From: Saksenaea vasiformis B4078
Lineage: Eukaryota > Mucoromycota > Mucoromycetes > Mucorales > Saksenaeaceae
Length of the DNA: 64,000 nucleotides
Assembly (NCBI GenBank): GCA_000697055.1
Contig: JNDT01001921.1
Location: 62,001 to 126,000 of the forward strand
Reading direction: 5' to 3'
A program made the position numbers and the translations under genes. Under the pieces are notes generated by a model. It made no database searches, was not told the DNA's origin, and saw nothing but the letters and a program-made list of their open reading frames with translations. Below, piece by piece: positions 1-64,000 of the stretch (positions are counted from its first letter, which is position 1; every line of letters begins with the position of its first letter).

Positions 1-1839
1 GTCGCCGGGCACAAGGTTTGGTTATATTCAGCTGCATGGAGATAATGTCCTTACACTTGTTCATATCAGGCATAAACAATGATGCACTACCAGAGGTAGA
101 GTTTGACTACGGCTTTGAGACAGACGGTGTTATGGTGGCGGTAAGATTCAAATCTCGAAAACCCAACCAAGGTCAGTCCCAGTCTTCGTTATACCGTGAA
201 ACACGTTAACGGAAAGGTTGTATTTCAGCGTCATATCCGTCGTCTCAGAGAGACTTTCAGTTCCTTCCCCGGAATAGGGACTTCTCTAATTTGCAGCATG
301 GCATTTATCATTTAAAGAAGGAACCTACGGGATTAACAGCTGCACGCGACTTAGACCCTGAGATAACCCGAATAGTGGGAATTGATCCAGGTATTTTTTT
401 TTTCATATAAGGAACTCAACAGAAGCTATATATATATATATATATATCTTAGGGATTCGTTCTCTTGTAACTGCTGTGGATACTGCAGACGACCTACACG
501 ATCAAGAGGCGAGAGAAAACCACACATTCGGCGTCACAAACGACTATTATCAGTAAGATATCAAAACCCTGGGTGTAGCCTGCGAAATAACTACAAAAAT
601 TTTTAGATCAAGCTCGAAATTCAATTGGAGTCTTCAGATAGAGCGGAAAAATCGTTCAATCGCCAACATGCAAGAGGTGTACGATCGTTTGTCGGAACAC
701 CCAAGCACAGCTTCATCTGTTGAAGGATTCCAACAATTTCTCATGGCACAATTTGCGGAACAACGCAGGTAACTGCAAAATATTCTCGTCCACATATAAT
801 CATATTAAATGAACTCTTCCCAGGATGGACGAGTACAACCGTCACTATAGACACAGAGAAAGGCGTGCTTTACAAGCATCTTCCAGAAGTATGACCATGG
901 ACATTATTTCAGACCAGGTTGGAGGATTTTACCCCAACACAACACTGGTAAGTATTTGATTGCTTGCTGTTCGTTTATTAATTGCGCATCAATGTCTTAG
1001 CCTCCTATCCAGAACATACAAAAAACGAGCAAAAGGTCGCGGCAACGCAGACGTCGGCAGCACCGTCGGAATCAGAACAGCAGACGTGACCAGCGTCGAG
1101 TCCTTATAGCATATGGTGATGCTGATCTGCACACTGGAGGTTACAAGACGTATGCTCCCCTTCCAGTAAAGGTGAGCGTGTTTAATTTATCTTACCCAGA
1201 GAATCCTATTAATATTTACTATTCATGTGTAGACCTTTCGTAAGGTTCTAGCACAGCGATGCCCAGTCATATGCGTTGACGAGTACAAAACCAGCAAAGT
1301 ATGCAGCAGATGTCATCACGACACAGTTGATTTCCGTGACTATAACATGCAGCTATGCAATCATCGGTATGTTTGAGAAACAAATGGGCACAGTGAAAAG
1401 CTGACTCATATGAATTAATCCCTAGTAAAAAGTATATCAGGCGTCGGCATCATAAGCACAAACGTCAACATTGTTTAGGTGACGACGAACAGATTCTGCA
1501 TCTTAGCAGTGAATGCCCCGATAGACGTCGACCTGGTATGGTTTAGTGTCGCTTTGATACGTTTTTCTTTAACACAGGAATAGCTCGCAACAATTACAGA
1601 AATATTGTCTATCCTATCCGACTGTGCCCTCAGTGCGCGTATGATAGACGAGGAGTCAGAACATCTCTAGTAAGTCGTACTGCTTGATTTGATACAACAA
1701 TTCTTAACTATTTGATTAGTTCTGGAATAGAGATGTTAATGCCGGAAGGAACATTCGTGATGTCTTGGTTCGCTACATCGAATCCGGATGTCAATTGACA
1801 TCTCGCCCGGCAGCACTGTCCAGGACAGTAAGGCAGTAA
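1..1839 (+). CDS. Fanzor RNA-guided DNA endonuclease (TnpB homologue), 5' end outside window
   Basis: This is a eukaryotic TnpB-like nuclease of the Fanzor family; characterised members cut DNA guided by an RNA encoded next to the gene. I read ten exons: 3-171, 229-390, 453-552, 607-768, 824-947, 1001-1171, 1233-1366, 1426-1535, 1578-1669 and 1720-1839. They join in one frame to exactly 448 codons with the stop at 1837. Seen in the translation: RuvC-I motif GIDPG (fragment residues 107-111), a YGDAD motif (277-281), DEYKTSKVCSRC (312-323) with a Glu and the first zinc-finger CxxC, a second CPQC (394-397), and RuvC-III RDVNAGRNI (from about 412). An Arg-rich stretch lies near residues 248-273. 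No internal stop or frameshift is seen. The first exon boundaries (the 172-228 intron and anything upstream) are the least certain. The layout resembles Fanzor1 rather than bacterial TnpB. The missing N-terminus lies left of the window. Confidence 0.93.
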
Positions 1840-4609
1840 GGAACTGCTCTCTCGTCACTTCGTTTGACATGGTAAACATTGAATTACGTCATACAATTCA
1901 CGTGCTAACAAGACTGTAGGGCTCCAGGCACCGTCCGAGAGCCTCCTGCGTTGACCTCAAATGCGTGGGATGAATCATTTCCACCCAATGAAATGCCTTT
2001 TTTTGCGCCTAATGTTTTCCAAAACTGTTACCTCGTTTATATATCAGTTTAAATAGTTTGATGTTTTCGCCAAACGAACTTTGCCTTGGGGAACTAGTTC
2101 TTTATATTGATCCAACGCTGGTAATTAACGCGATGTATCTTTCTGCTGCCAGAAGTTGGTTCTCTATTATATGACATAGAAAGGTGTTTCAAAAGAACGG
2201 GATGGGATAGGTACCTAAGGGGAACACTAATCCTTTTCTTTGGCTCTCTTCATTTTTGTGTATCGTTCAGCTCGCATGACCTCGGTCCACAATTGTCTGC
2301 GCAATAGTGGCACTTTTTTGCTCATGACCCAAGTAAACGTCATGCTCAGCTTCACTCCACCTCCACGATAGATCGTTGATGATTGTATCGCTTCAAGTTC
2401 TCTGCGCTACGTTACAATCGGCTGTTGGTTAACACCAGCTACCTTCTCCCCTACCTTCCCCTCCTTTATGGTGCGAGGTATAGCTGCCATAACTTCACGG
2501 AACCATCCTCCGGGGTGAGTAAAACGGCATCCAAATGCTATGCCATTAACTAACCATGGATATATTTTTTATGCTACTCAATAAACTTTGCATCTACTGA
2601 GGGACCAGGTTGATGTAAAAATGAGCCTGTCGCCAATTCATGTCCCAACGAACGTCTATTCAATTCTTATTAGTGAAATCCTGGCTCCAGACAGACTTAA
2701 AAAGTTTTATAGATTAGCGGAAGCATCCGTTCGAACATTTATGTTTTATTAAGTGAGTATGAGTGCTGCGCTCAAAAGCATGTTCGCTCTACGCGGCCAC
2801 AGAGAAAAGAGAGAAAAAATAACTTGCTAGCAGAGGGGAGAAAAGAAAAAAAAAAGAAAGAGAAAACTATAGGATGAGATTAACAGGAGCGGAAGAACAG
2901 AATGAGAGGGGATGAGAGAAACGGTGGGGCCAAGTTGCAGTAGAGGGCGGGCTCGAAAGCCAGATAAGAAAGTCGTCTAAGGGGTTTAGAGGTACATGTT
3001 GAACCCTCAAGGAACGTGTGGCTCGCGTGTGAGGAATTGGGTTCCAAGAGGATGTCACATAGCACTGGTGAGGACTTTTGCAAACAGTGGAACGTATTGA
3101 GGTTGCTGAGGTGGTTAGACGGGTAGTTTATTCAACGCATATAAAATTGAGTCTAGAGTACGCAGCCAGTGGGGCACCGGTGCGCTGCCAGACACCGTAT
3201 CGCTGAGATTAGCGGTAGTGGAGCAGTTTCTGCATGCCTAGGAAATCCCACCCCGGGTTCCACCCTAGCTCCAGCAGATACAACGGTTATGTTTGCTTTT
3301 ACCTATCGGTGCGTGTAGGACAGAGTCGATTCCCAGCTGTAGAGCAATGTAGCAATCCCTATTGAACAGTGACCAAAAGAGGGCGACGATCCTCATCCCT
3401 TTCCTAATTATTAGCATCTATCATTATCCACATGGTTATTGCCACGAGTTTTTGTAAAGCTCCCATCTTTTGTGTCATTCATTGGATTTCATTACTTCAT
3501 AAATGACGTCCTTTTTGTAAGTAGACCTTCACAAACGGAAGATTATTTAGCCAAAATAAGGTTATCGTTGCCTTCATCGTAGCTGACCTCGGTTCATCAA
3601 AGCTACGCCATTTAGGCAATCCTATGACAAAGGTTCAAGCAGCGTTCATTTTCCAAATGCGTTGTGTGAACTTTCCAAAACAACGACGTGTTGCTGTTAC
3701 ATTTGTGGAAAGAATGGCCCGAAGACAAGTAATCTGTTTTTGGCACTTCCCCAAACAACACTATGAGGCCTTGGGTGTACATGCTATTTTTCTCTTCTAA
3801 ATTGTTTGGACCTCTAAAAGCTCCATAATAGTACCTCTTTTGGCAGCACTAAAGTCATCCATTCTTCAACCTGTGGGTGGCGGAAGTACAAAGCACAAGA
3901 AGCTTGTGTCATGAAAAGAAGAAAAAAGTGCCGCTTTTTACCGATAGGAGGCTTTCACAAGCGGACATTCTCAACTAAGCGCACGCGGGTCACTTTTTTT
4001 TTCCCGGAGGCGTGCCGCCAATCAAAACTGCGATGATGTACTATTTCGAGACACGTAAATGGCCAGCGGTTTCTACGACGAAGAATGGTAGCTATTCCGC
4101 CTGACATGGACAGCTGTTTATTCTGATAGTGGGAAAGAGTTGTTCCTATCTAACAACCGAAGGTTTTGATAGTTTACGATTAACTCTTGCTATCAGGTTG
4201 AATACCAAGACTGGAAAGACCCGTGTAACAAAGCTTATTGTGGTTAAAAACCAACGCTTGTAACGTTACAGTCTGCGCTGCAGCTGTACACACTCGCTAT
4301 GCAGGTCTGCTACACACAATGTAAACCTACACAAATGTGCAGTGGTTCAAGACGTTCTCATGATGGCTTTTGATAAGATCACCTTTATATGACTAACACA
4401 GTGCACAGCACTAAGAACGAACCGCTGTCAGAGTATCTTCAAACATTTTCCATGGTTCGATATATCGCAGATGATAGTTGGCGGACTCCCACAAGCTAGG
4501 CTTGGGGGAAAAGAATAATAGTATGATCCTAGCTCCCTGATATCCATGACAATAACCAGAATGTTTTCTATGCACATTAAAAACAGTAACTATCTGTTCT
4601 ACATCTCTC
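1840..4609. other. Gene-free stretch downstream of the Fanzor gene
   Basis: No supportable gene. The first few hundred bases after the Fanzor stop are where a Fanzor guide RNA and the element's right end would be expected, but I could not define either from one copy. The rest is mixed-composition sequence with short A- or T-runs and no ORF above about 90 codons that looks coding. A short CYICGK-like peptide near 3690 could be a zinc-finger remnant, but there is no frame around it. Confidence 0.5.
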
Positions 4610-19884: not shown

Positions 19885-21319
19885 TTACCATGTTAATGGA
19901 AACAGCATGATCAACAAGATGAGATAAAACCAAGTTACACTTGACGTCACTGAAGTCGCGGATGAAATTTCTGTAGATGTCTCTAAGGAGTGTGATGAAA
20001 GATGTAACGTAGCATCCGATGCAACAACGGAACGCGCTAACCCGATCTGATGGTTACCGATATCAAAAACAAGATAGGTTGAACGGAGTACACTGTCACC
20101 CAAAAGGATTGCGCCATTGGCACTCAACGCTGTACTGCCTCCGGTTGACATCCATGGTGCAAGGCCAAACATGCATTGCCTTGCATCTTCGATCGTATCT
20201 GCATCCAAAGGAATGATAAGGTCACGGACGGGAACGCGTAAATAGAGAGACTTGTCTGCAAATCCAAATTGAATTTGTAAGGGTGATGCAAGATGACAGT
20301 CAATAAGGTAAGTGCCCGATGCCTGATCGAGTAGGACCTTTCCATTGCTCCCTGCCACGGTCATCACAATCTTTTCCGCCACCTCCTTCTCCAGGTAAGT
20401 CAGGGTTGTGCCCGTGTCGATAATCACTGGACGTGGTTCCGAGAAGGGTGCATCCACCACTACATGCTCGTTGTCGTTGTTGTTGTTGTTGTTGTCTTGC
20501 ACCTGAATGCCTTGCCCATTGACCATCCAGTAGGTATAATGGTTGTTCTGCTGCACGACGGGCAAGTAATGCAAATCACCGACAAATTTGTTTTTGTCGA
20601 TTCCGCCCAAAATCATCTCGCCCGCCCAGCCTTGCTCGTACAACGAACCCATGTAAAATGAAAAGATAGGTTTGTCAATCAGTCCTTGTTTGGCTAAATT
20701 AAACAGAACAGAGTCATGCGGCACACTGGCCAATGCAGGAAATCCGAGTCCAAGAATTCCATTGGGTGAAACGTTATTATCCCCCGGGCGCGGTAAAATC
20801 ATGTCATGCGTTATACTGGCAAGCCCAAATTGCTGCTGGGGTACTTGAACTCCCGCAATATGGACAACATCACGGCCATACGAACCATTCGCCTGCCCAA
20901 TGCCATAAACAATGCCAAACCGTGGATGACTCGGTTCAAATGTGCTCGAACGACGAGGCTCAAATTTGTCTAATGGACAACTCGAAGTACATGCCACAGA
21001 AGGAACCCAAAGATCGGCACTGAGCTCGAAATAATAATCAATAAAATAAATACCGTTGTAGTAGTAGTACAAATCCTATTATTATTATTTTTTCTTACCT
21101 TCCTGTATCGACTGCTACCGTAAAGTTCTGTGGCGGTGTACCGATGCCAACCGTCACTAAATACTCTGATCCATCATCATTGTAAAGACGCGTTGTATAG
21201 GCTAGGTCGCGGCGGACATGTTTGTAGTTTCTTCTTCGCGACAAAGGTAGCCGTAGAGTTGTCGTCTCAATAAAAGAAGTACATAGCAAAAGATAAATGA
21301 AAAGAAACAAACACCACAT
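19885..21319 (-). CDS. GPI-anchored-type aspartic protease (copy A)
   Basis: Pepsin-family (A1) endopeptidase, probably secreted and retained at the cell surface like yapsins. Two exons (21319-21099, 21019-19885) give 451 residues. In order: signal peptide (hydrophobic FLFIYLLLC), a short propeptide with basic sites (SRRRNYKHVRR), VGIGTPPQNFTVAVDTGS with the first catalytic Asp, Cys pair CTSSCP, the flap region, IIDTGTTLTYL with the second catalytic Asp, and a hydrophobic C-terminal tail (WFYLILLIMLFPL) after a Ser/Thr-rich stretch, as expected for a GPI signal. A poly-Asn insert (NNNNNN) sits before the second Asp. The intron falls inside the Ser codon of DTGS. The start is the ATG directly before the signal peptide. 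It is the first of three similar genes in tandem. Confidence 0.92.
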
Positions 21320-21640
21320 CCTCCACACAACATGCGTTCAAGTAAAGAAGAAGAAAATAAGAAGAAGAAAAAAAAATGAAAACGTGTTACGGTGACACAA
21401 AACTTAAAAAAAATAAATCGTTTCGGTTATGCAAAATGGGTTGTCATGGGTTTGTTGCACTTTATTCTTTCTTGGTTGGGTCCTTGCTCGACGCAAAATT
21501 TATTACAAGGTAGAATAGTTCATTTTCAATAAACAAAGTACTGATTAGTCTATACAAGGAAAAAAAAAAGAGGAGTAGGAGTAGCAGGAGGAGGAGAAAG
21601 AGGAGGAGGAACGACAACAATGATGCTGCGTTCTTTTTTC

Positions 21641-23237
21641 TTAGATTAACAGAAGGACAATGATAAACAACAACCTCAATGTGCCGTTATTTGACCATAC
21701 AACACTCAGGGTGGAAGCTGCTTCTGCCGGTGTGCCGCGTTCTGTGCCATTGATGCCATTGACGCTGCCGCCGACACCATTAGCAGCAGCAATACCGATA
21801 CGGTTTCTTCCCATGTCAAAGACCATGTAGGCACTTCGTAGAACGGAATCACCAATAAGATACATGTTACTGTTGAGTCCTGCATCCGAGGGTCCGGTAG
21901 GTGCAATGCCAAAAAGACACGTCTGTGCTGTGGCGGCGATATCGCCATCGAGCGGTATCACTAATTCGTACGCAGGTACACTGAGTACCACAGGTGAGTC
22001 GCTGAAGTTGCTTGACTGTGACATATGAAGTTCCAGTATCGCGGGGGATTGTGCTGCTGCACAGTCGACAATCACCACACCTGTCTGACGATCGAGTTTA
22101 AACCCGTTGGCGCCTGCAATGGCGGTGGCAATGTCATACGCCATGCGATCAGGCAAATAGGTGAGTGTTGTTCCCGTATCCAGGATAAAGGCGCCCATGG
22201 TACTATGTTCTTGAACAATTTCATCATTCATGCGTACCGCAAGGCCTTGTCCATAGACCATCCAATAATAGTACCCCCGTTGCCCTGTTCCCCCATTCCC
22301 ACCGCCGCCGCCGCCGCCGACGCCGTCGCCGTCGCCACTGCTGCCATCTGTGCTGCTGCTGCTGTTGCCATGTTTTGATCGAAGCGGCGCCACCGGGAGA
22401 TACTGCAGCTCGCCCGAGTATTTGGTTGAATCCGTGCCGCCAAGCGTGATTTCGCCTGCCCAGCCATCGACCGTCGCTCTGTTGAGATAGACAGAAAAAA
22501 TAGGCTCCGAAATCAGGTTCTGGCTGACCAAATTAAAGACAAACGGATTGTAGGCGGTATCCCCATTGGTGGTGGCTGCTGTCAATTGCGGGTAACCCAT
22601 GCCTAGGATACCGTTGCCAACGACGGCCGTGAAATTAGCTGCGCTGGTTCCCGGGGGAGGCATGGACAAGATATCTCTTGTATAGGTAGCGAGGCCGAAC
22701 TGTTGTTGCTGCACACGGGCACCGGCGACGGTCACCGTATCGGTTGCATATGTACCATTGACGCTTCCGATGCCATACTCGATACCAAATTTCTCGTTCA
22801 ATTGACGAAACGTGCTCGACTGTGATTCATTGAAACGGGCAAATGGACATGATCTTGCGGGACATCGACTGGAGGGAATCCATAGATCTGCACTTTTTTT
22901 TCAGGTTTTTTTTATTTATTTATTCTAAGTTCGAGATGTTATCTTCTTTTGATAAACGCAATGCTAACCTGCCAGTGTCAAATGTCACAGTGAATTGTTG
23001 GGGCGGCGTGCCGACACCCACTTGGATTAAATACTGCGATCCTTGATCATTGTACAACCGTCCTTGATACGTTTGTCGTTTGGCGAGGCGTTGATGTTGG
23101 TACTGAATATCCTGCAAGATATGATCTACTGGAGGACGGATCAAAGGTAATCGAAGAACGGGCCCGCTGCTACTACTAGTACTAGTACTACAATGAACTG
23201 TTACCACAAAGATGGACAAAGCAACAAAGATCTGCAT
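21641..23237 (-). CDS. GPI-anchored-type aspartic protease (copy B)
   Basis: Second pepsin-family protease of the array; two exons (23237-22969, 22892-21641) give 506 residues. Signal peptide MQIFVALSIFVVTVHCS, a propeptide ending in a KR site (QRLAKRQ), VGVGTPPQQFTVTFDTGS with the first Asp, Cys pair CPARSCP, a long Ser/Gly-rich insert (SSSSTDGSSGDGD followed by GGGGGGG), LDTGTTLTYL with the second Asp, and a hydrophobic tail (LLFIIVLLLI) fitting GPI attachment. Both active-site Asp are intact. Its intron is at the same position and phase as in copies A and C, within the catalytic Ser codon. The insert is encoded by simple repeats around 22290-22360. Confidence 0.92.
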
Positions 23238-23472
23238 AACAAAAGGAGATAAAAAGAACAAAAAAAAGACAAAAAAAAAGTAAGTTTTCCTCGTGCAAAA
23301 CTTTTTTGGGTTATGCAAACAAATTCACGAATCAAAAAGGACCGATGTTATTCCCGAGACAAACAATGAGACGAAACTCGCACGGATCACACATACACAT
23401 AAAAAAAGAACGCGTAGCAGAGAGAAAATAAAAAAAATTATTAGGCTAGGAAATTTTTTTTATTTTATTATT

Positions 23473-25162
23473 CTAGGTGAAATGACAGCCAAAAAGAAAA
23501 GATAAAAATGAAACCGCGGTGATACCTAAGAACTGCTGCCATCCATGGAGTGATTGCCATAAGGTTGAGGATGACGATGTAGGCAGCGAAGACGGAGGTT
23601 CGGCAACATCACGCGACGATGACGAAGGAGACATTGTCATTTTTGGCGTTGCGTTGGCACCTTCCCTACTTGTTGTTGTTGTTGGTTTAGCGGTGGAAGA
23701 AGAAGAAGAGATGGCTGGGGCGATACCAATACGATTCTCTTTCATGTTGTAGACGGAGTAGATTGTACGTAGCACCACTTCACCTAGCATCCATGTTTGG
23801 CCAGTAGAGAGTGACAGGTCTTCGGGTGCAGGGGCGATGCCAAAGATGCAGGCGCGGGCATTGTCTGATTTTTCAGCATCCAGCGGAATGACGAGATCAG
23901 AAATGGGCACATGGATGGTTACAGCGGATGCGGGGGTGGTTTGGCGGCTAATAGAGGTCGACAGCTGAAACTGGATTGACTCGGGGCTTTTTGCTAGGCT
24001 ACAATCTATCCGATACACACCGCGCGAGGGCAGTAAACGCGCTGTCGTTGGCATGGAGCGCAAAATGCCGTCGGCAACATCGCGCGGTAAATAACTGAGC
24101 GTGGTACCCGTGTCAAGGATAAACGGTTGGAGCCCGACGGACTTCTGGTAACCGGTTGACGTAGCGACGGCCTGACCAGGCACTGTCCAGTACAGGTACG
24201 TTGCGTTCTTGGGCACAGGCTTGCCAAGAACGGGAGAGACGCTGTCGCCGGCGGAAATGGTATAGGGAACAACGGGAACATACTGTAATGTTCCCGAGAA
24301 TCGCTGGCGGTCGATCCCTCCAAGGGTAATTTCGCCGCTATGGCCAAATTCAGAGCGCGCATTCAAAAAGAGGGAGAAAATAGGCTCCCGAATGGCGTTC
24401 TGCGCCACTAAATGAAACACAAGCGGAATATCGTTTTTGATGCCACGTGCAGAATTAAGGCCGGGATAGCCAAGGCCCATAATACCGTTGTTCTGAGGAC
24501 CATTCTGAACAACGCCAAGAATATGCTCCGTCGATGTGGCGAGGCCGATCATTTGATTCGTTACTGTGACCCCACCGAGACCGACTGTTTCATATGCATA
24601 GGTTCCGTTGGCATTACCGCGGCCATATTCGATGTTGAAAGGCATCGCTGTCGATCGGAAACTCGTCGATTTTGTAGGATCAAACCGATCGTACGGACAT
24701 TGCTGGATCGAACATTCGATCGCCGGAATCCAAAGCTCGCCACTAATGCAGTGCAACGACATAAAAAAAAAGAAGGGGCGGGGGAGAGAGAAAGAGAGAT
24801 ATTTTTTTTTAGTACCACAGGGTCCTGTTCTGTTTCTGTTCCTTTATCATTATTTTCTTTTTTTGTTTGCTGACCGACCTTCCTGTATCGACAGCGAGCT
24901 CAAATGTTTGTGGAGGTGTACCGATAGCAACGGTGGTGAGATATTCTCGACCATTGGCATTAAATAACGAGGCTTTATTTAGTTGAGGGTTGACATCACG
25001 TTTATCTTTGCCATGTCGTCGTAATGATGTAAATTGGCCATTTTCGTTTCTTTTTAACGATAAACGGATGACACCTTCTGCGTTCGTGTTGTCAGTCACA
25101 GAGGCATTGGAACAAAGAACGACAGTGAAGATCCCGAGGACGATGCTTATCAAAGAACGCAT
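23473..25162 (-). CDS. GPI-anchored-type aspartic protease (copy C)
   Basis: Third protease of the array, 517 residues from two exons (25162-24879, 24742-23473). Signal peptide MRSLISIVLGIFTVVLCS, propeptide with dibasic sites (RRHGKDKRD), VAIGTPPQTFELAVDTGS with the first Asp, Cys pair CSIQQCP, and LDTGTTLSYL with the second Asp. A Ser/Thr-rich stalk of about 60 residues (SSSSSTAKPTTTTS) leads to a hydrophobic end (FLGITAVSFLSFLFG), the strongest GPI-type tail of the three. The intron, 136 nt, is longer than in A and B but at the same place. Only about 235 bp separate its stop from the start of copy B, so the promoter of B must be short. Confidence 0.92.
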
Positions 25163-26439
25163 GTACCGGGCAAAAAGGAATAAGGAAGGAGTGGAAGGGT
25201 GTGAAAAGGAAGGGAAAAGGAAGACAAAAAGGAAAAACAGCTTACTGCCACACACAACGCTCTCATTTTTTCGGCGGAGCAATAAAGATGAAAAGAAGTA
25301 CCAATTTCTTCTACCCGAAAATAACTTTTTGGTCATCGCCCTACCATTTTCGGAGCAAATGCACTCCCCAAAAGCAATGTAGCACCCGCACCCAATTTTC
25401 GACATCACAGGCCGACAAAAATGTACGTAGCAGGCTGTGTCTTCCCCGAGCCCCCTTCTCTTTCTCGGTGATATGATGGATCTTTCTTACATAGACCGCG
25501 TGTCAGCCGTAAGGAACCCCGCAAGTTTCCTTTCTTTTATAACATTTCGTAACGAAGAACCCAAACAGAGATGGGGCAGGGCCATGCTTGTTGATGAACA
25601 TGGCTGTTGTGATGAGGAAACATAATGCTACAGGGAACATTCGTTCTCCCATGGAAGGTTTTGAATGGATGAGTTAGGAATTCATGGGAATGAGTCGGCC
25701 TCTATCTTTCATAGCCGTGCCGCGCGTATTTTAAATGATAAAGCATCGTCGTTCTTTTATGCTAAGACAATCGAGCCTCAGCTAAATTATCGGACATGAA
25801 GGTCACTGCTGAGTTTGTTGCTGAATGGAAGAAGAAACGCATAAGCGGATGAATTGGAGGGACACGCCGACGACTACATATAGATACACGAAACGCCGCA
25901 AGCCCTCAGGGGTAGACTAACGGCTGAACTCACTGAGGTGGATTCAACCTAGGGAAAGGACGGTTTGATAAGTGTATCCAGGTGACTTCAACTCCCTTTT
26001 TATACAGCAAACTTCGAACGACATGCGTGCGACAGAGTCGAGATTTAAGGTCGGCGTTCTTGTGGAACCTGAAAATGTCAGTACCGATTTATCCTTGAAC
26101 AACCTTTTTAGTTCTTCTTTGACTGACTTTTGCTAATAAATCTACTCTTGCTTAGGCAGTGTTTCCAGAGATCATTAGCAATAAACACGGGCGTAACAAG
26201 AAGAAGAAGAAGAAGAGGAAGAAGGAAAGCACAGGATGAACGGTAGGTTCACACTCAGCCACAACATGATGACAGGCACCAGAACAACTACCACAGTGGC
26301 AACAGCAACAGCAGCAGCAGCAGCAGCAAAAATAATAAAATAACAACAACAACAACAACAGGTTTTCCTTTATGCTTGCTAAAAAACCCAATGATAAAGA
26401 GACAAGAATATAAATAGACTTTTTTCCTTCTTGCTCACC
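25163..26439. other. Divergent intergenic region
   Basis: Between the minus-strand protease array and the plus-strand membrane-protein gene. No gene is supported. A GAA/CAG/AAC trinucleotide-repeat patch lies at about 26201-26362. A TATAAATA sequence at 26409-26416 lies just before the ATG at 26440 and may be a TATA box. Confidence 0.5.
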
Positions 26440-49400: not shown

Positions 49401-51019
49401 ATGACGCTTGGTCAGGACGAATACTATGTAAGACTGGAATGACATGGATCTTGCGCTTCTGTAAATCTCAGAATTAGCGATCACTTAGTTACTCTGCTCA
49501 CAATAGGTCAAGCGAGTGGCAGGAAGAAAATATGATGTAGGTCTCAGCCTCCAGTTGCTGCCGTGCAGACAGTTCGGATATATGATCTTCCGCGTATTGA
49601 TTGTTCTCCAATCCTTAGGGAAAAACAGCCTTGTATTTAATTGAATGGGAAGACTATTCAAAGGAATACAATACGTGGGAGGCAGCTGAGAACCTACTTG
49701 TTGGCAACGAAAGCATGATCAAGGCGTTTGAACAGCAGCTTCTGCTAGAAAATCCACATCAACAAAGCATTTTGACCACTCATAACAAAACGTTGTTGCA
49801 GTTTACCTATGATCCAGACGCTGACGAAGACTCTGCTGAAGAAAGTTCAAAACCAGCAGTTGAAAATGTACATGAAGTCCCATCAACATCTAAAAGACCA
49901 AAAGTACTGGATCATGATACCAACGGCGCAGCAGCAAGAAAACTCGTGAAATTGCGAAACGGAGAGGTATTACTCGTAATAATGATCTTCTTTGCATCTA
50001 ACCAGTGGATATTGATAAGCATCGCATTGCGAAAAGCGTCCTTGACAAGTTTGAAAGAGCGATTGAATCATCTAAAGAAAAAGCCAAGGTACCGACAACA
50101 CTTACGTGTTAGGGCGTTACTGATTAATTTTTTTTGTTCCCAGATGCATAGTCAACATCCACTGGTGAAGCTGAAACCTGGTGTGCGCGTATTCAAAGAC
50201 GTTAAACCACCAGTGACAGTGGTCAACAATGTTGACAACGACACGTTTCCATCTGACTTTGTTTACGTCGACCGTCTTGTCCATTCTGCAGATGTGCCTG
50301 AGCCAGACCCGGAATTTCTTGTTGGCTGCCAAGATTGTGATGACCGGTGTCGTCACCAGTCGTTCGAAGGTTCATCTGAGTCCGTCTGTCACGAGTATCC
50401 ATCATATAACCGCCAAGGCCGTATCACCATTGCTCCCGGAGCGTCGATAACCGAGTGTAACCTACGATGTAAATGCAGCTCAGAATGCTACAATCGTGTG
50501 GTTCAGCGGGGCAGGAAAATACCACTTCAGATATTCAAGACCAAGGAGAAAGGATGGGGTGTGCAAGCAATGGCTGACATAAAGTGTGGAAAGTTCGTGG
50601 AAGAATACACTGGAGAAGTCATAGGAAACGTCGAAGGCGAATTCCGTGGTCAAATCTATGACCAACTTGGTTACAGCTACCTCTTTGATATGGATTACGC
50701 AGAAGACAACGAAACACCGGCTAAATATACCATCGATTCTTATGTTCTGGGTAATGCCAGCCATTTCTTCAACCACTCCTGCACTCCAAATCTTGGCGTC
50801 TACGCGGTTTTCTATGACAGTGCTGCGGCAGACTACCACCGTCTTGCGTTCTTCGCTGTCCGTGATATTAAGAAAGGGGAGGAGCTTACGTTCGACTACA
50901 TTGGCGACCGTCCCTCTGAATTGCAAGAGTTGGAAAGCAATAGCAAGAAACCGAAAAAGGCGGGAAAGTTCCCCTGTCGCTGTGGTGCTGCCGTGTGCCG
51001 GAAATGGATCTATATGTAA
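49401..51019 (+). CDS. clr4: Clr4/SUV39-type histone H3K9 methyltransferase
   Basis: Writes H3K9 methylation for heterochromatin. Exons 49401-49427, 49508-49537 and from 49619, with further introns likely at 49967-50005 and 50089-50143. The N-terminal chromodomain is assembled across three exons: DEYYVKRVAGRKYD, then LYLIEWEDYSKEYNTWEAAE. After a Ser/acidic linker come the pre-SET cysteines (CQDCDDRC, CNLRCKCSSEC), the SET domain with GWGVQAMADI, FFNHSCTPNL and ELTFDYIGD (AdoMet and catalytic residues), and post-SET CRCGAAVCRKWIYM, so all zinc-binding Cys are present. The frame stays open across the two putative later introns. The frame between them reads more like protein when shifted (DIDKHRIAKSVLDKF), which leaves that junction unresolved. 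The start ATG gives a very short N-terminus before the chromodomain. Confidence 0.93.
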
Positions 51020-61697: not shown

Positions 61698-64000
61698 TCA
61701 TTGGCTACTACTTCCAGAATGATAGTAGCGACTTGAAGAACGGTAGTACGGAGGAGGAGACGCGTAGCGATAGTACGAATGATGGGAATAATAAGAGGAG
61801 GGACGATATGATAAACTTGGACGTCGATAGTCGCCTGAATAGCGATTATCAAAATCGCGATATGGTCTTGGCTTTCTCCCATAGGGTGAAGTTTCTCTAC
61901 TTCGACATCGGTAGTAATAAGAATCGTTATCCTTTGGGTGAGGAACGCTACTCCTCATCGATAACGGAGCTACTGGATCTGAGGACGTGGACATAGGAGT
62001 TGTTTGCAACGACTCGATTCCTTCACGATTTCTCCACCCATCATTGTCCCTTGATTCCTCTCGAATATCCCCTTTGATTATTGCCGTTCTTTCTTCTTCA
62101 CGCCCATTCGATTCTTTTTGTAGACCATCTATATACTTTGTTGTATTATCATCAACAGGCGAATCCACAGGTGCTTGTTTCACTGGTGAGTTAGGTCGTG
62201 ATTTTTTCTTGCGGGTGATTTTCTTGGCAAATTCTGAGCCGTGTGCGTCAATGAACTTCTCAATTTTCGCACGGACGGAGCTATTCACGGTGTGAATTTT
62301 TCGAGAAGAATGTGATTCTCGTTGAACAATGTGGTGTGTCATCTAAAAGTCTGTAAGCAATCATTCGCTTCTACCTCTTCTACCCCACCTTTCTGGCAAG
62401 TTCCTTGAACAGATGCTTATCCCCTTGCCATAAGGAGGTATGTTTTGCACTGAGGTACTTGATCACCACTTTTCCCACTTCCTTTTTGAGCTCTGTCTCT
62501 TCAGGCGTGGGATCGCTGGTGCCTTCTATAGAGCTACGTCGGCTTAAGCGAGGCGACGGCGCGCTTTTACTTGCTGCTGAATTTGTAGGGCTATTCAATC
62601 GACTAGCTGTCTGATCGCGCTTTTTTCGCTCCGTATCTAAGATTGCCTTCTCCACCAAGCCGGCGATCTGGGCTTGACTGACGCCTTCAACGGAACTAAC
62701 ACGTTCTTCTGGGAATTCCCATTGTGTTTTTCCTGTTACTTTGTTGTAATAATAGACATAACCATCTTCGCACGTAGCTGATCTCCAGTTTAACGGTAAT
62801 TTTTTAGTGCACCCATTACTTGGCGTATCTGCGCTCGGTATGTGGGAAGGCATATCTGACCCAAATGCATCATAATGTAATCCTGCTCGACGAGAATTCA
62901 CATCCATCGGGTCGCTGTCGAGTTTGGATGACAGATCCATTTGTTTAACAGTTGGGTAGGTTTGAAATGGCTGCACTGCGACAGGTTCATAGAACTCATT
63001 ATGAATTCCGCCGCGTCCATAGTAATCATAACTGCCCAGCATCGCGCGAGGAGCAATAGGGATGGCAGGTACAGGTGGATATTCCATTTTCCAACGGACT
63101 TCGTTAGCATCCGCAAACAATGATAAGTGTTCATAGTAGTCATCATCGGGGTCGAAAAACTCTCTGGTGGAAGTGAATCGCATTCTTTTTGTCACCAACG
63201 CCGAAGTATCGTCTTCCATCTTTTCGTTTTCACAGTCCATTTCTCCATTTTCTAAATCATAATGTAAGTCAGAAACCTTACAGAGCAAAGGCTCACCATT
63301 AGTAACCCGGGTTTCCGTAGTCTTCCGTTTCGGAATTCGGTAGACGCTTTTCAGTTGGTCCCACTTATCCAATAGTTCCGTGGCACGAGAGCTTATCTTT
63401 TCGTCGTCGTTTGTAGTGAACTTATGAACAACATCAAACATCTGGCAATCTTCCAAGCCGTTTCTGTTGCCCAAAGGTAGACGATCGAGAACATGCAACA
63501 CCTAAAGGGTACGCATCAATGTACAATGATCATGGTCAAAATATCTTACCTTCGTCAAGATTTCATGGTCATTCTTCCATTCTCCAAGCCAAAATTTTAG
63601 CATCTTTAGCCCATGTAGACGAACGAACGTCTTTAGGATCTCTTTTCCTCGGGTGGTGTTGGGGCTTGTCAACTCCAGTCGGTGGAGAAGCTTATTGACT
63701 AGCGGTGCTTTACCAACCGAGTCAAGCATTTTCTTGACAAAGCTCTGCACTTCATCCGGATCTGCCAAAGGTCGAGTAACGGAGCGGCGGGGTTTCCTTG
63801 GTTTACGGTTAATGGTTGTCACAGACTCCGCGCTATCAGTATCCGCATCGCTATCGGAAAGTGCCGACGGTAAATCGACTGTTTCTTCTTCTACCGTCTT
63901 TTCCGATGCACCAATATATCCTTTGCAGTTTGGTTCGCCACAGTAGCATTTCTGTGCCACCGCTCTTTGGAAAAAGAAACGACTATGAGTAACAGGAATG
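61698..64000 (-). CDS. SET2: Set2-type histone H3K36 methyltransferase, 5' end outside window
   Basis: Co-transcriptional H3K36 methyltransferase that binds phosphorylated RNA polymerase II. Only the C-terminal two thirds are in the window. Exons: up to 63550 from the right edge, 63501-62389, and 62342-61698. First comes the post-SET motif AQKCYCGEPNCKG, so the SET catalytic core lies beyond 64000. Next are a LEDGF/TFIIS-like helical domain (VQSFVKKML, LKMLKFWLGEWKND), a WW domain (LPLNWRSATCEDGYVYYYN, GKTQWEFPEE) and the SRI polymerase-binding domain (KVVIKYLSAKH, LFKELARK, ESHSSRKIHTVNSSVRAKIE). The tail after SRI is rich in Tyr, Arg and Ser (YRDFDNRYSGDYRR, SYYSHHSYYRYASPP). That tail is not standard for yeast Set2. 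The exon boundary near 63961 is not fixed. Confidence 0.93.

Follow-up and report, generated by a model that had tools for sequence, protein, structure and literature searches.

We characterized a Fanzor gene and the mobile element that carries it in a 64,000-nucleotide stretch of the Saksenaea vasiformis B4078 genome (the window; positions 62001-126000 of contig C431). Genome searches covered 38.7 Mb in 666 contigs, and the window was extended to the left with the overlapping region L009 (C431:54001-63999). Positions 1-1943 of the window (plus strand, as for all features of the element given below) very probably cover the right-hand part of a cut-and-paste DNA transposon copy. The transposon is multicopy and probably non-autonomous, and its sole recognized gene is a Fanzor1 with 18 introns. 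The Fanzor gene itself is of a known kind, and we consider the insertion habit of the transposon the more informative point.

Copies, termini and target duplications

We searched the genome with window positions 1-1900, following a suggestion in the first-pass annotation of this locus that genomic copies be counted, and found at least 40 matching places, the window included. This number is a lower bound, as 40 of the 54 candidates were scored. Twenty-six other places are nearly full length at 80-83% identity, and 13 are partial at 80-89%. Places do not correspond exactly to elements: many are located at the ends of contigs, and two contigs may each hold a piece of the same copy. The blastn comparison with these copies extends family homology from the window leftward to L009 5808 (window -2192).

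The copies begin at GGCTCGCCTGCGGTGTC and end sharply at ...GGGCTACAGACATGGTCACGGAGCC, and paired ends indicate an element length of 4.2-5.0 kb (C478 8113-12318; C665 121535-126490). At up to three mismatches, 29 left-end and 45 right-end places were located, with none for the reversed controls. The two ends match each other solely in the 5-bp GGCTC/GAGCC. The left end holds the 13-mer GTTAATCTTCGGA up to three times in steps of 41 bp (two steps are of 40). We counted 69 occurrences of this 13-mer in the genome and none of its reversed control. On inspection, all lie in left ends except two: the first is in the sequence flanking the C383 end, and the second is in C277, for which no left end is listed. 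In the window copy, comparison with other copies indicates 3' non-coding sequence from 1840 to the right end of the element at 1943. The right terminus itself (GGGCTC...GAGCC, 1919-1943) is recognizable and has diverged from that of the family.

An 8-bp target duplication is identical at a fixed offset in 5 of 11 pairs of ends on the same contig (C656, C665, C269, C363 and C626). C478 is identical with a shift of one, and near matches are found in C577 (7/8) and C585 (7/8 with a shift of three). Comparing 16 further right ends with 32 left ends across contig ends, we found an identical 8-mer at the fixed offset in C239-C240, C312-C8, C360-C415 and C414-C294, and with a shift of one in C632-C460 and C93-C179. 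Near matches of this length can arise by chance, because C436 fits two different left ends at 7/8; C312 and C8, though sharing their 8-mer, overlap in the part of the gene that they hold. Next to the window copy, the candidate duplication TCCTGCGT at 1944-1951 is assigned by position only; it has no left partner that we could find and is unconfirmed.

Related sequences occur elsewhere in the genome. PF07282, the zinc ribbon domain discussed below, is present in at least 137 places (150 of 388 candidates scored), at least one of which (C584) belongs to this family, and several Fanzor families thus seem to have expanded in this genome. Of the right-end places, we inspected five at which no copy was known (C89, C596, C300, C541 and C607), and these lie outside this family. 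At C89, L112 contains a related Fanzor subfamily, whose last 70 residues show 60-68% identity and whose right terminus is the same. At C607, a Fanzor-like fragment recognized by eye (SDGYRIDIQF...IDPG; L114 1231-1587, without Pfam support) runs opposite to a right-end-like 22-mer with three mismatches. Ahead of the Fanzor gene, a similar short open frame is found in C665 (L065 88-348, 87 codons) and C633 (L062 506-739, 78 codons); it is interrupted in L048, and the L065 version has no Pfam match over the cut-off. Finally, 119 bases of the left end are fused to a very common repeat in C396:1-1154 and C154:30644-30829. The two chimeras have different flanks and are 99% identical over the 150 bases compared, and may have moved as a unit.

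The Fanzor gene and its introns

The first-pass annotation had identified the gene as a Fanzor nuclease with RuvC-like motifs and both zinc finger CxxC pairs, and our comparisons agree with it. In the hidden Markov model search it had proposed, which we ran against Pfam, PF07282 (the TNB zinc ribbon of TnpB/Cas12f) scores 27.9 bits (E 2.6e-6) against the 447 residues encoded in the window, above the cut-off of 26.3 bits, and a marginal 26.4 bits against the complete 797-residue model. When a profile was built from the protein and its homologues, the top PDB chain was the Spizellomyces punctatus Fanzor (E 0.0061). The Fanzor pattern D-X(125,275)-[TS][TS]xx-C4-X(5,50)-RD (PMC3627910) is present as D-X206-TS-xx-C4-X14-RD, with the spacings of 206 and 14 inside the published limits. 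The defining residues are D459, E663, C670/C673, C744/C747 and R762-D763. A DPG motif and a relocated glutamate (E-alt) are described as Fanzor signatures, and a TDG motif is located in the Fanzor1 WED domain (PMC10711439). Here, the TDG motif (FETDGVMV) is found at 120-128, and the RuvC-I aspartate Asp-459 (384-386), part of GIDPG, is conserved in 20/20 sequences. The relocated glutamate Glu-663 (1281-1283) is found in the context E663-YKTSKV-C670, six residues ahead of the first CxxC, and is conserved in 19/20 sequences, with a stop in L059. The first zinc finger pair (Cys-670 and Cys-673, 1302-1313) has cysteines in 20/20 sequences, and the RuvC-III aspartate Asp-763 (NRDVNA, 1732-1734) is conserved in 19/20, being replaced by His in L057, a copy with 797 intact codons. 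Zinc finger cysteines are lost in L042 and L043; these two copies and L057 are natural active-site variants. Fanzor1 membership of the gene is well supported by its sequence, and the window gene could possibly encode an active, programmable nuclease.

Our spliced model of window positions 3-1839, with nine introns of 42-62 nt removed, yields 447 codons and a stop (448) with no frameshift, reproducing the first-pass reading. The nine introns of that reading stand, but its ten exons do not, as a tenth intron at 16-69, being open in the window copy, was taken for exon. When introns were chosen by conservation of their GT and AG among copies, the first uninterrupted frame comprised 815 codons from an ATG at L009 6428. 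When applied to 15 other copies, this model runs into stops at codons 389-391 in most of the well aligned ones, inside window positions 16-69. The acceptor of this intron reads TAA in 13 of the 15 (in frame in eight, behind a 1-nt deletion in five), is CAG in L042 as in the window, and is lost in L043; the intron stays open in the window copy by chance. With intron 16-69 removed, the full predicted gene comprises 797 codons in 19 exons separated by 18 introns. It starts 1,572 bases left of the window (window -1572), so that the leftward extension proposed earlier has recovered an intact start, and its coding part in the window comprises 11 exons (3-1839, stop codon at 1837-1839). Nine copies were available with the complete gene. 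Five of them (the window copy, L047, L054, L055 and L057) have the 797 codons free of stops and frameshifts, whereas L044, L046, L048 and L051 carry frameshifts. L054, though it has 797 codons, has lost the GT of intron 16-69. Seven incompletely covered or degenerate copies (L041, L045, L049, L050, L058, L042 and L043) were left out of this count.

The splice sites are kept in most aligned copies, with scattered losses. The GT and AG of the nine introns read previously are conserved in 15-20 of the 19-20 covering sequences, window included: 172-228 (57 nt; GT 19/19, AG 19/19), 391-452 (62 nt; 19/20, 20/20), 553-606 (54 nt; 20/20, 19/20), 769-823 (55 nt; 20/20, 20/20), 948-1000 (53 nt; 19/20, 20/20), 1172-1232 (61 nt; 20/20, 20/20), 1367-1425 (59 nt; 19/20, 20/20), 1536-1577 (42 nt; 20/20, 15/20), whose acceptor is the weakest site, and 1670-1719 (50 nt; 20/20, 19/20). 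The additional intron 16-69 (54 nt, GT...CAG) keeps its GT in 15/19 and its AG in 18/19 sequences. As these introns are common to the aligned copies, intron richness belongs to the family and came with the element, and the retained introns mean that the family moves as DNA. The density of introns had been taken as a sign of long residence in the host, a view we abandon for the same reason; domestication inferred from the introns is likewise rejected. Between the window and 16 fully covered copies, there are 0-9 gap columns in the C-terminal exons (1,475 positions) and 18-46 in the introns (~590 positions); the incomplete copies L053, L056 and L059 were excluded from this comparison. The ratio of nonsynonymous to synonymous substitution rates (dN/dS) of the window copy versus 15 copies is 0.092-0.180, with dS of 0.53-0.89, and these sequence comparisons demonstrate purifying selection across the family.

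Oriented insertion, mobilization and a predicted guide RNA

We fetched left flanks for 34 of 36 left-end places (C536 and C436 match only inside the end), and 32 of them could be anchored, the exceptions being C666 and C623. The information content of the 32 flanks reaches 1.56 bits at position -20 and 1.24 bits at position -8, the first base of the duplication, which is C in 26/32; the outer flank stays at or below 0.21 bits. The resulting word approximates TTnAAnCTCCG(C/A), with eight bases between the word and the duplication. C(C/A)G(C/A) is found exactly at -20 in 22/32 flanks and within -23..-18 in 29/32, and at 70 control positions its mean count is 0.43 and its maximum 2. We counted the word on the sites in which we had discovered it, and judged the effect large enough for this not to matter. 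In the right flanks of 28 copies (C277, lacking a recognizable terminus, was dropped), the first base is C in 23/28 and every other position has at most 0.31 bits. The mirrored word is found at the mirrored right position in 0/28 and one base off in 1/28. Insertion is oriented beside a motif, with the word on the left side only, and a fixed-distance oriented insertion beside a short word is unusual for a cut-and-paste element. No two outer flanks are related, their ungapped identity reaching at most 47%, and the sequence that separates the word from the element is variable. The left-end repeats contain, on the other strand, TCCGAAGATTAAC, which has TCCG(A) in common with the target word; the C383 copy adjoins one such left-end-type repeat. 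We infer that one DNA-binding protein, most simply the transposase, reads both the target word and the left-end repeats.

We tentatively propose, as a possibility of limited likelihood, that the family represents an undescribed type of eukaryotic cut-and-paste transposon, in which a left-end complex would read CTCCG(C/A), make a staggered 8-bp cut 12 bp from the CCG and place the left end towards the word. If true, eukaryotes would have a sequence-addressed, oriented DNA transposon, possibly coupled to a copy-maintaining RNA-guided nuclease. In the reading that we prefer, excision and insertion would be carried out by a transposase encoded elsewhere. This transposase may recognize a word similar to CTCCG(C/A), with the CCG beginning 12 bp outside the target that is duplicated, together with the related words in the left-end repeats. 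Fanzors studied previously bind right-end RNA and cut matching DNA (PMC10432273, PMC11423790). Here, a predicted right-end RNA, which would overlap the last part of the gene, would direct the Fanzor to DNA that matches what lies beyond the right end. Cutting of an emptied or unoccupied site may then favor repair from another copy, and the element would be kept in the genome. A mosaic gene, as outlined below for the window copy, would fit such repair. Two short stem-loops across the stop codon (1815-1848) form a candidate part of the guide RNA scaffold, and a further stem-loop closes the element terminus. The 19 tested pairs form in 99.3% of cells and in 18-40% when slid, and most of them hardly vary. 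Rfam and tRNA scans of the window returned nothing (ARAGORN was run with the bacterial code). The duplication has been described as part of the RNA scaffold in Fanzor1s (PMC10711439); here, it varies apart from its first C. As many copies allow us to read both the right flank, which holds the presumed guide, and the left flank, which holds the target word, the role of the Fanzor in its transposon becomes directly testable.

The Fanzor ribonucleoprotein could instead pick the insertion sites itself, with CCG(C/A) as target-adjacent motif (TAM) and the 8-bp stagger as its own cut. The word at a fixed distance on one side only would fit this idea, as would the CCG TAM reported for one Fanzor2 (PMC10432273). 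However, the low identity between outer flanks and the variable bases between word and element indicate that there is no shared guide match, and cuts would fall 9 and 17 nt after the word, unlike the 16-17/20-21 nt of SpuFz1 (PMC10432273). We thus regard Fanzor-directed insertion as very unlikely and retain a transposase as the presumed agent that chooses the site.

A gene for this transposase was sought in the left-hand regions of C665, C478, C643 and C633, where the longest open frame inside the element has 124 codons; four open reading frames from these regions gave no Pfam match over the cut-off and no recombinase domain. An autonomous partner at C383 was rejected, as only the first 121 bases match and the rest is unrelated in 6.5 kb. 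Some 4 kb beyond this truncated left end, L107 4495-5922 contains a long RTC4-like open reading frame (PF14474, E 2.7e-19). The C396/C154 chimeras were ruled out as partners, being a very common repeat joined to the left end. At C596, a right-end-like 22-mer with one mismatch is located ~250 bases from a pair of open reading frame pieces, and a link between the two is unsupported. The pieces (L111 2453-4210), which we take to be DDE-type, contain the motifs THDEST, FDQSSNH and YPKFHCECNWIERYW and have no Pfam hit; the first of them has 49 matches in the genome.

The window copy, its surroundings and related elements

The window copy differs from its relatives at its left end, where ~500 bases are missing or replaced. 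To the left of the remaining homology, L009 5230-5411 belongs to a repeat that has seven other copies and terminates a Tc1-like remnant, and L009 5403-5546 is another repeat. The Tc1-like transposase remnant (L009 4160-5411, window -3840 to -2589) has frame breaks and lies directly upstream of the truncated Fanzor element; a piece of it matches PF13358 with 20.8 bits, below the cut-off of 28.6. Capture by this neighboring element was rejected, as no inverted repeats were found around both. From about -170 to 1190, the window copy is 83-93% like L042/L043, with a short stretch closer to a main-subfamily copy, and from about 1190 to its end it resembles the main subfamily at 87-90% on average and at 90-94% for the best copy. 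The N terminus is closest to main-subfamily copies (85-91%), and the stretch after it is close to none (65-78%). The window copy is thus a recombinant of two subfamilies. A slowly evolving window lineage, suggested by a short tree branch, was set aside once the sliding comparison revealed the mosaic, and neither the private changes of the copy (0 nonsynonymous, 4 synonymous) nor branch lengths were used as evidence. Because its left end is lost, the copy is probably immobile. It is probably still able to encode the full protein, and perhaps the RNA.

The copy may alternatively be a dead relic, intact through recent insertion or conversion; this alternative departs from our preferred explanation only in that nothing of the copy would still work. 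We find this doubtful but worth considering, since the left end is lost and stretches up to 93-94% like copies of two subfamilies may make the copy young as a unit; against it, there is no disabling change in 2,394 coding bases. The first-pass annotation had raised domestication. In such a scenario, the host would have taken over a copy that became immobile when it lost its left end, and would maintain it as an RNA-guided nuclease of the cell. Both the catalytic residues and the frame of 797 codons are intact, while the left of the element is missing or replaced. Intact frames are however common in the family (5/9 complete genes, including L047 and L055), and the gene is a mosaic with transposon subfamilies. 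A locus that is one of at least 40 places and combines two transposon subfamilies does not support the claim, and we consider a host takeover improbable. Hardly credible is an exon-intron model over-fitted to a pseudogene: the splice sites are predicted only, and in the 797-residue model the TNB domain just clears its cut-off (26.4 versus 26.3), but four other copies likewise read 797 codons once these 18 introns are removed, the introns hold most of the gaps and frame changes, and dN/dS is 0.09-0.18. A right-hand part of a transposon copy with a gene that can still be read remains the explanation that we prefer.

Several findings weigh against this preferred explanation or its parts. No convincing duplication is found in 3 of the 11 same-contig pairs (C633, C643b and C458), and no transposase could be linked to the element in the four left-hand regions and the few candidate partners examined. 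The two closest relatives of the C596 pair, with 92% identity (C384 and C493), have no right-end-like 22-mer in the stretches fetched. In the 32 left flanks, there is no conserved word immediately before the target duplication, where the simplest TAM is expected; as the duplication also varies after its first C, a TAM is not readable from the insertion sites in the usual way. A single-sequence PDB comparison places Fanzor third, at a non-significant E of 2.3. Covariation at the right end does not exceed that of shuffles (106/500), and right-end RNA folding is no better than in shuffles (z 0.23, -0.02 and -0.84). The 18-intron splicing pattern and the guide RNA are both predictions. Pairwise dN/dS reflects the history of the family and not that of the window copy alone, for which branch estimates are spoiled by its mosaic origin.

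Elsewhere in the window, three or more aspartyl-protease-like open reading frames were recognized by eye in tandem on the minus strand at 19885-25486, with Pfam checked for 21644-22900. Positions 49619-51019 encode a chromodomain and SET protein like the H3K9 methyltransferase Clr4. This SET-domain protein is 43% identical to its Radiomyces spectabilis counterpart, the named hit with the best score, and another protein matches at 88% over 62%. At 62380-63999, a protein with WW and Med26/TFIIS-like domains runs off the window and is possibly a Set2-type methyltransferase.

We compared the element and its gene to known systems. Homologues in other Mucorales, namely Fennellomyces, Rhizopus, Choanephora, Lichtheimia and Rhizomucor (P0001-P0009), share 28-41% identity over 21-93% of the 447-residue part. 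They are annotated as hypothetical or predicted, several models look incomplete, and none is close enough to represent the same family. An oomycete protein matches weakly (P0010, E 6.2e-4). A search with the 797-residue model, in which solely the candidates sharing most words were scored, returned only P0009. Tc1/mariner-type elements duplicate TA, whereas this family makes 8-bp duplications, which also sets it apart from Tc1/mariner-type Fanzor elements. The Fanzor1 nucleases (Bao and Jurka 2013, PMC3627910; SpuFz1 of Spizellomyces punctatus, PDB 8gkh) have the same residue pattern, DPG motif, relocated glutamate and TDG motif, and are likewise passengers of DNA transposons. Compared with SpuFz1, the gene described here has 797 codons, 18 introns and 70 residues between its two zinc finger pairs, and the similarity is significant by profile only. 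It adds a large, heavily spliced and apparently intact Fanzor1 to a known family. The same genome holds dozens of natural variants, one of which (L057) is intact in length and altered at an active-site residue. The relocated glutamate and DPG are also shared with Fanzor2/IS607-type proteins, but Fanzor2s sit in IS607-type elements that insert at a dinucleotide by means of a serine recombinase (PMC10711439), and this element makes 8-bp duplications.

As the first-pass annotation had pointed out, proteins of this class are known from Mucoromycota: Fanzor1 passengers have been described in Mucor, Rhizopus and Phycomyces (MCi, ROr and PBl families; PMC3627910). These elements also have several copies, and the 5' parts of MCi-2 vary between subfamilies (PMC3627910). 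Their duplications are of 9 bp (MuDR-like), of 11-12 bp (ATAATTNNNN(N)) or putatively of 6 bp (PMC3627910), so that the 8-bp duplications found here also differ from the 9 bp of the MuDR-type Fanzor elements of Mucoromycota. Our literature search found no paper on this transposon family. As far as that search shows, the family and its oriented, spaced target word are new, and in contrast to the MCi, ROr and PBl elements it combines 8-bp duplications with GGCTC/GAGCC ends, left repeats spaced by 41 bp and an oriented word outside the duplication.

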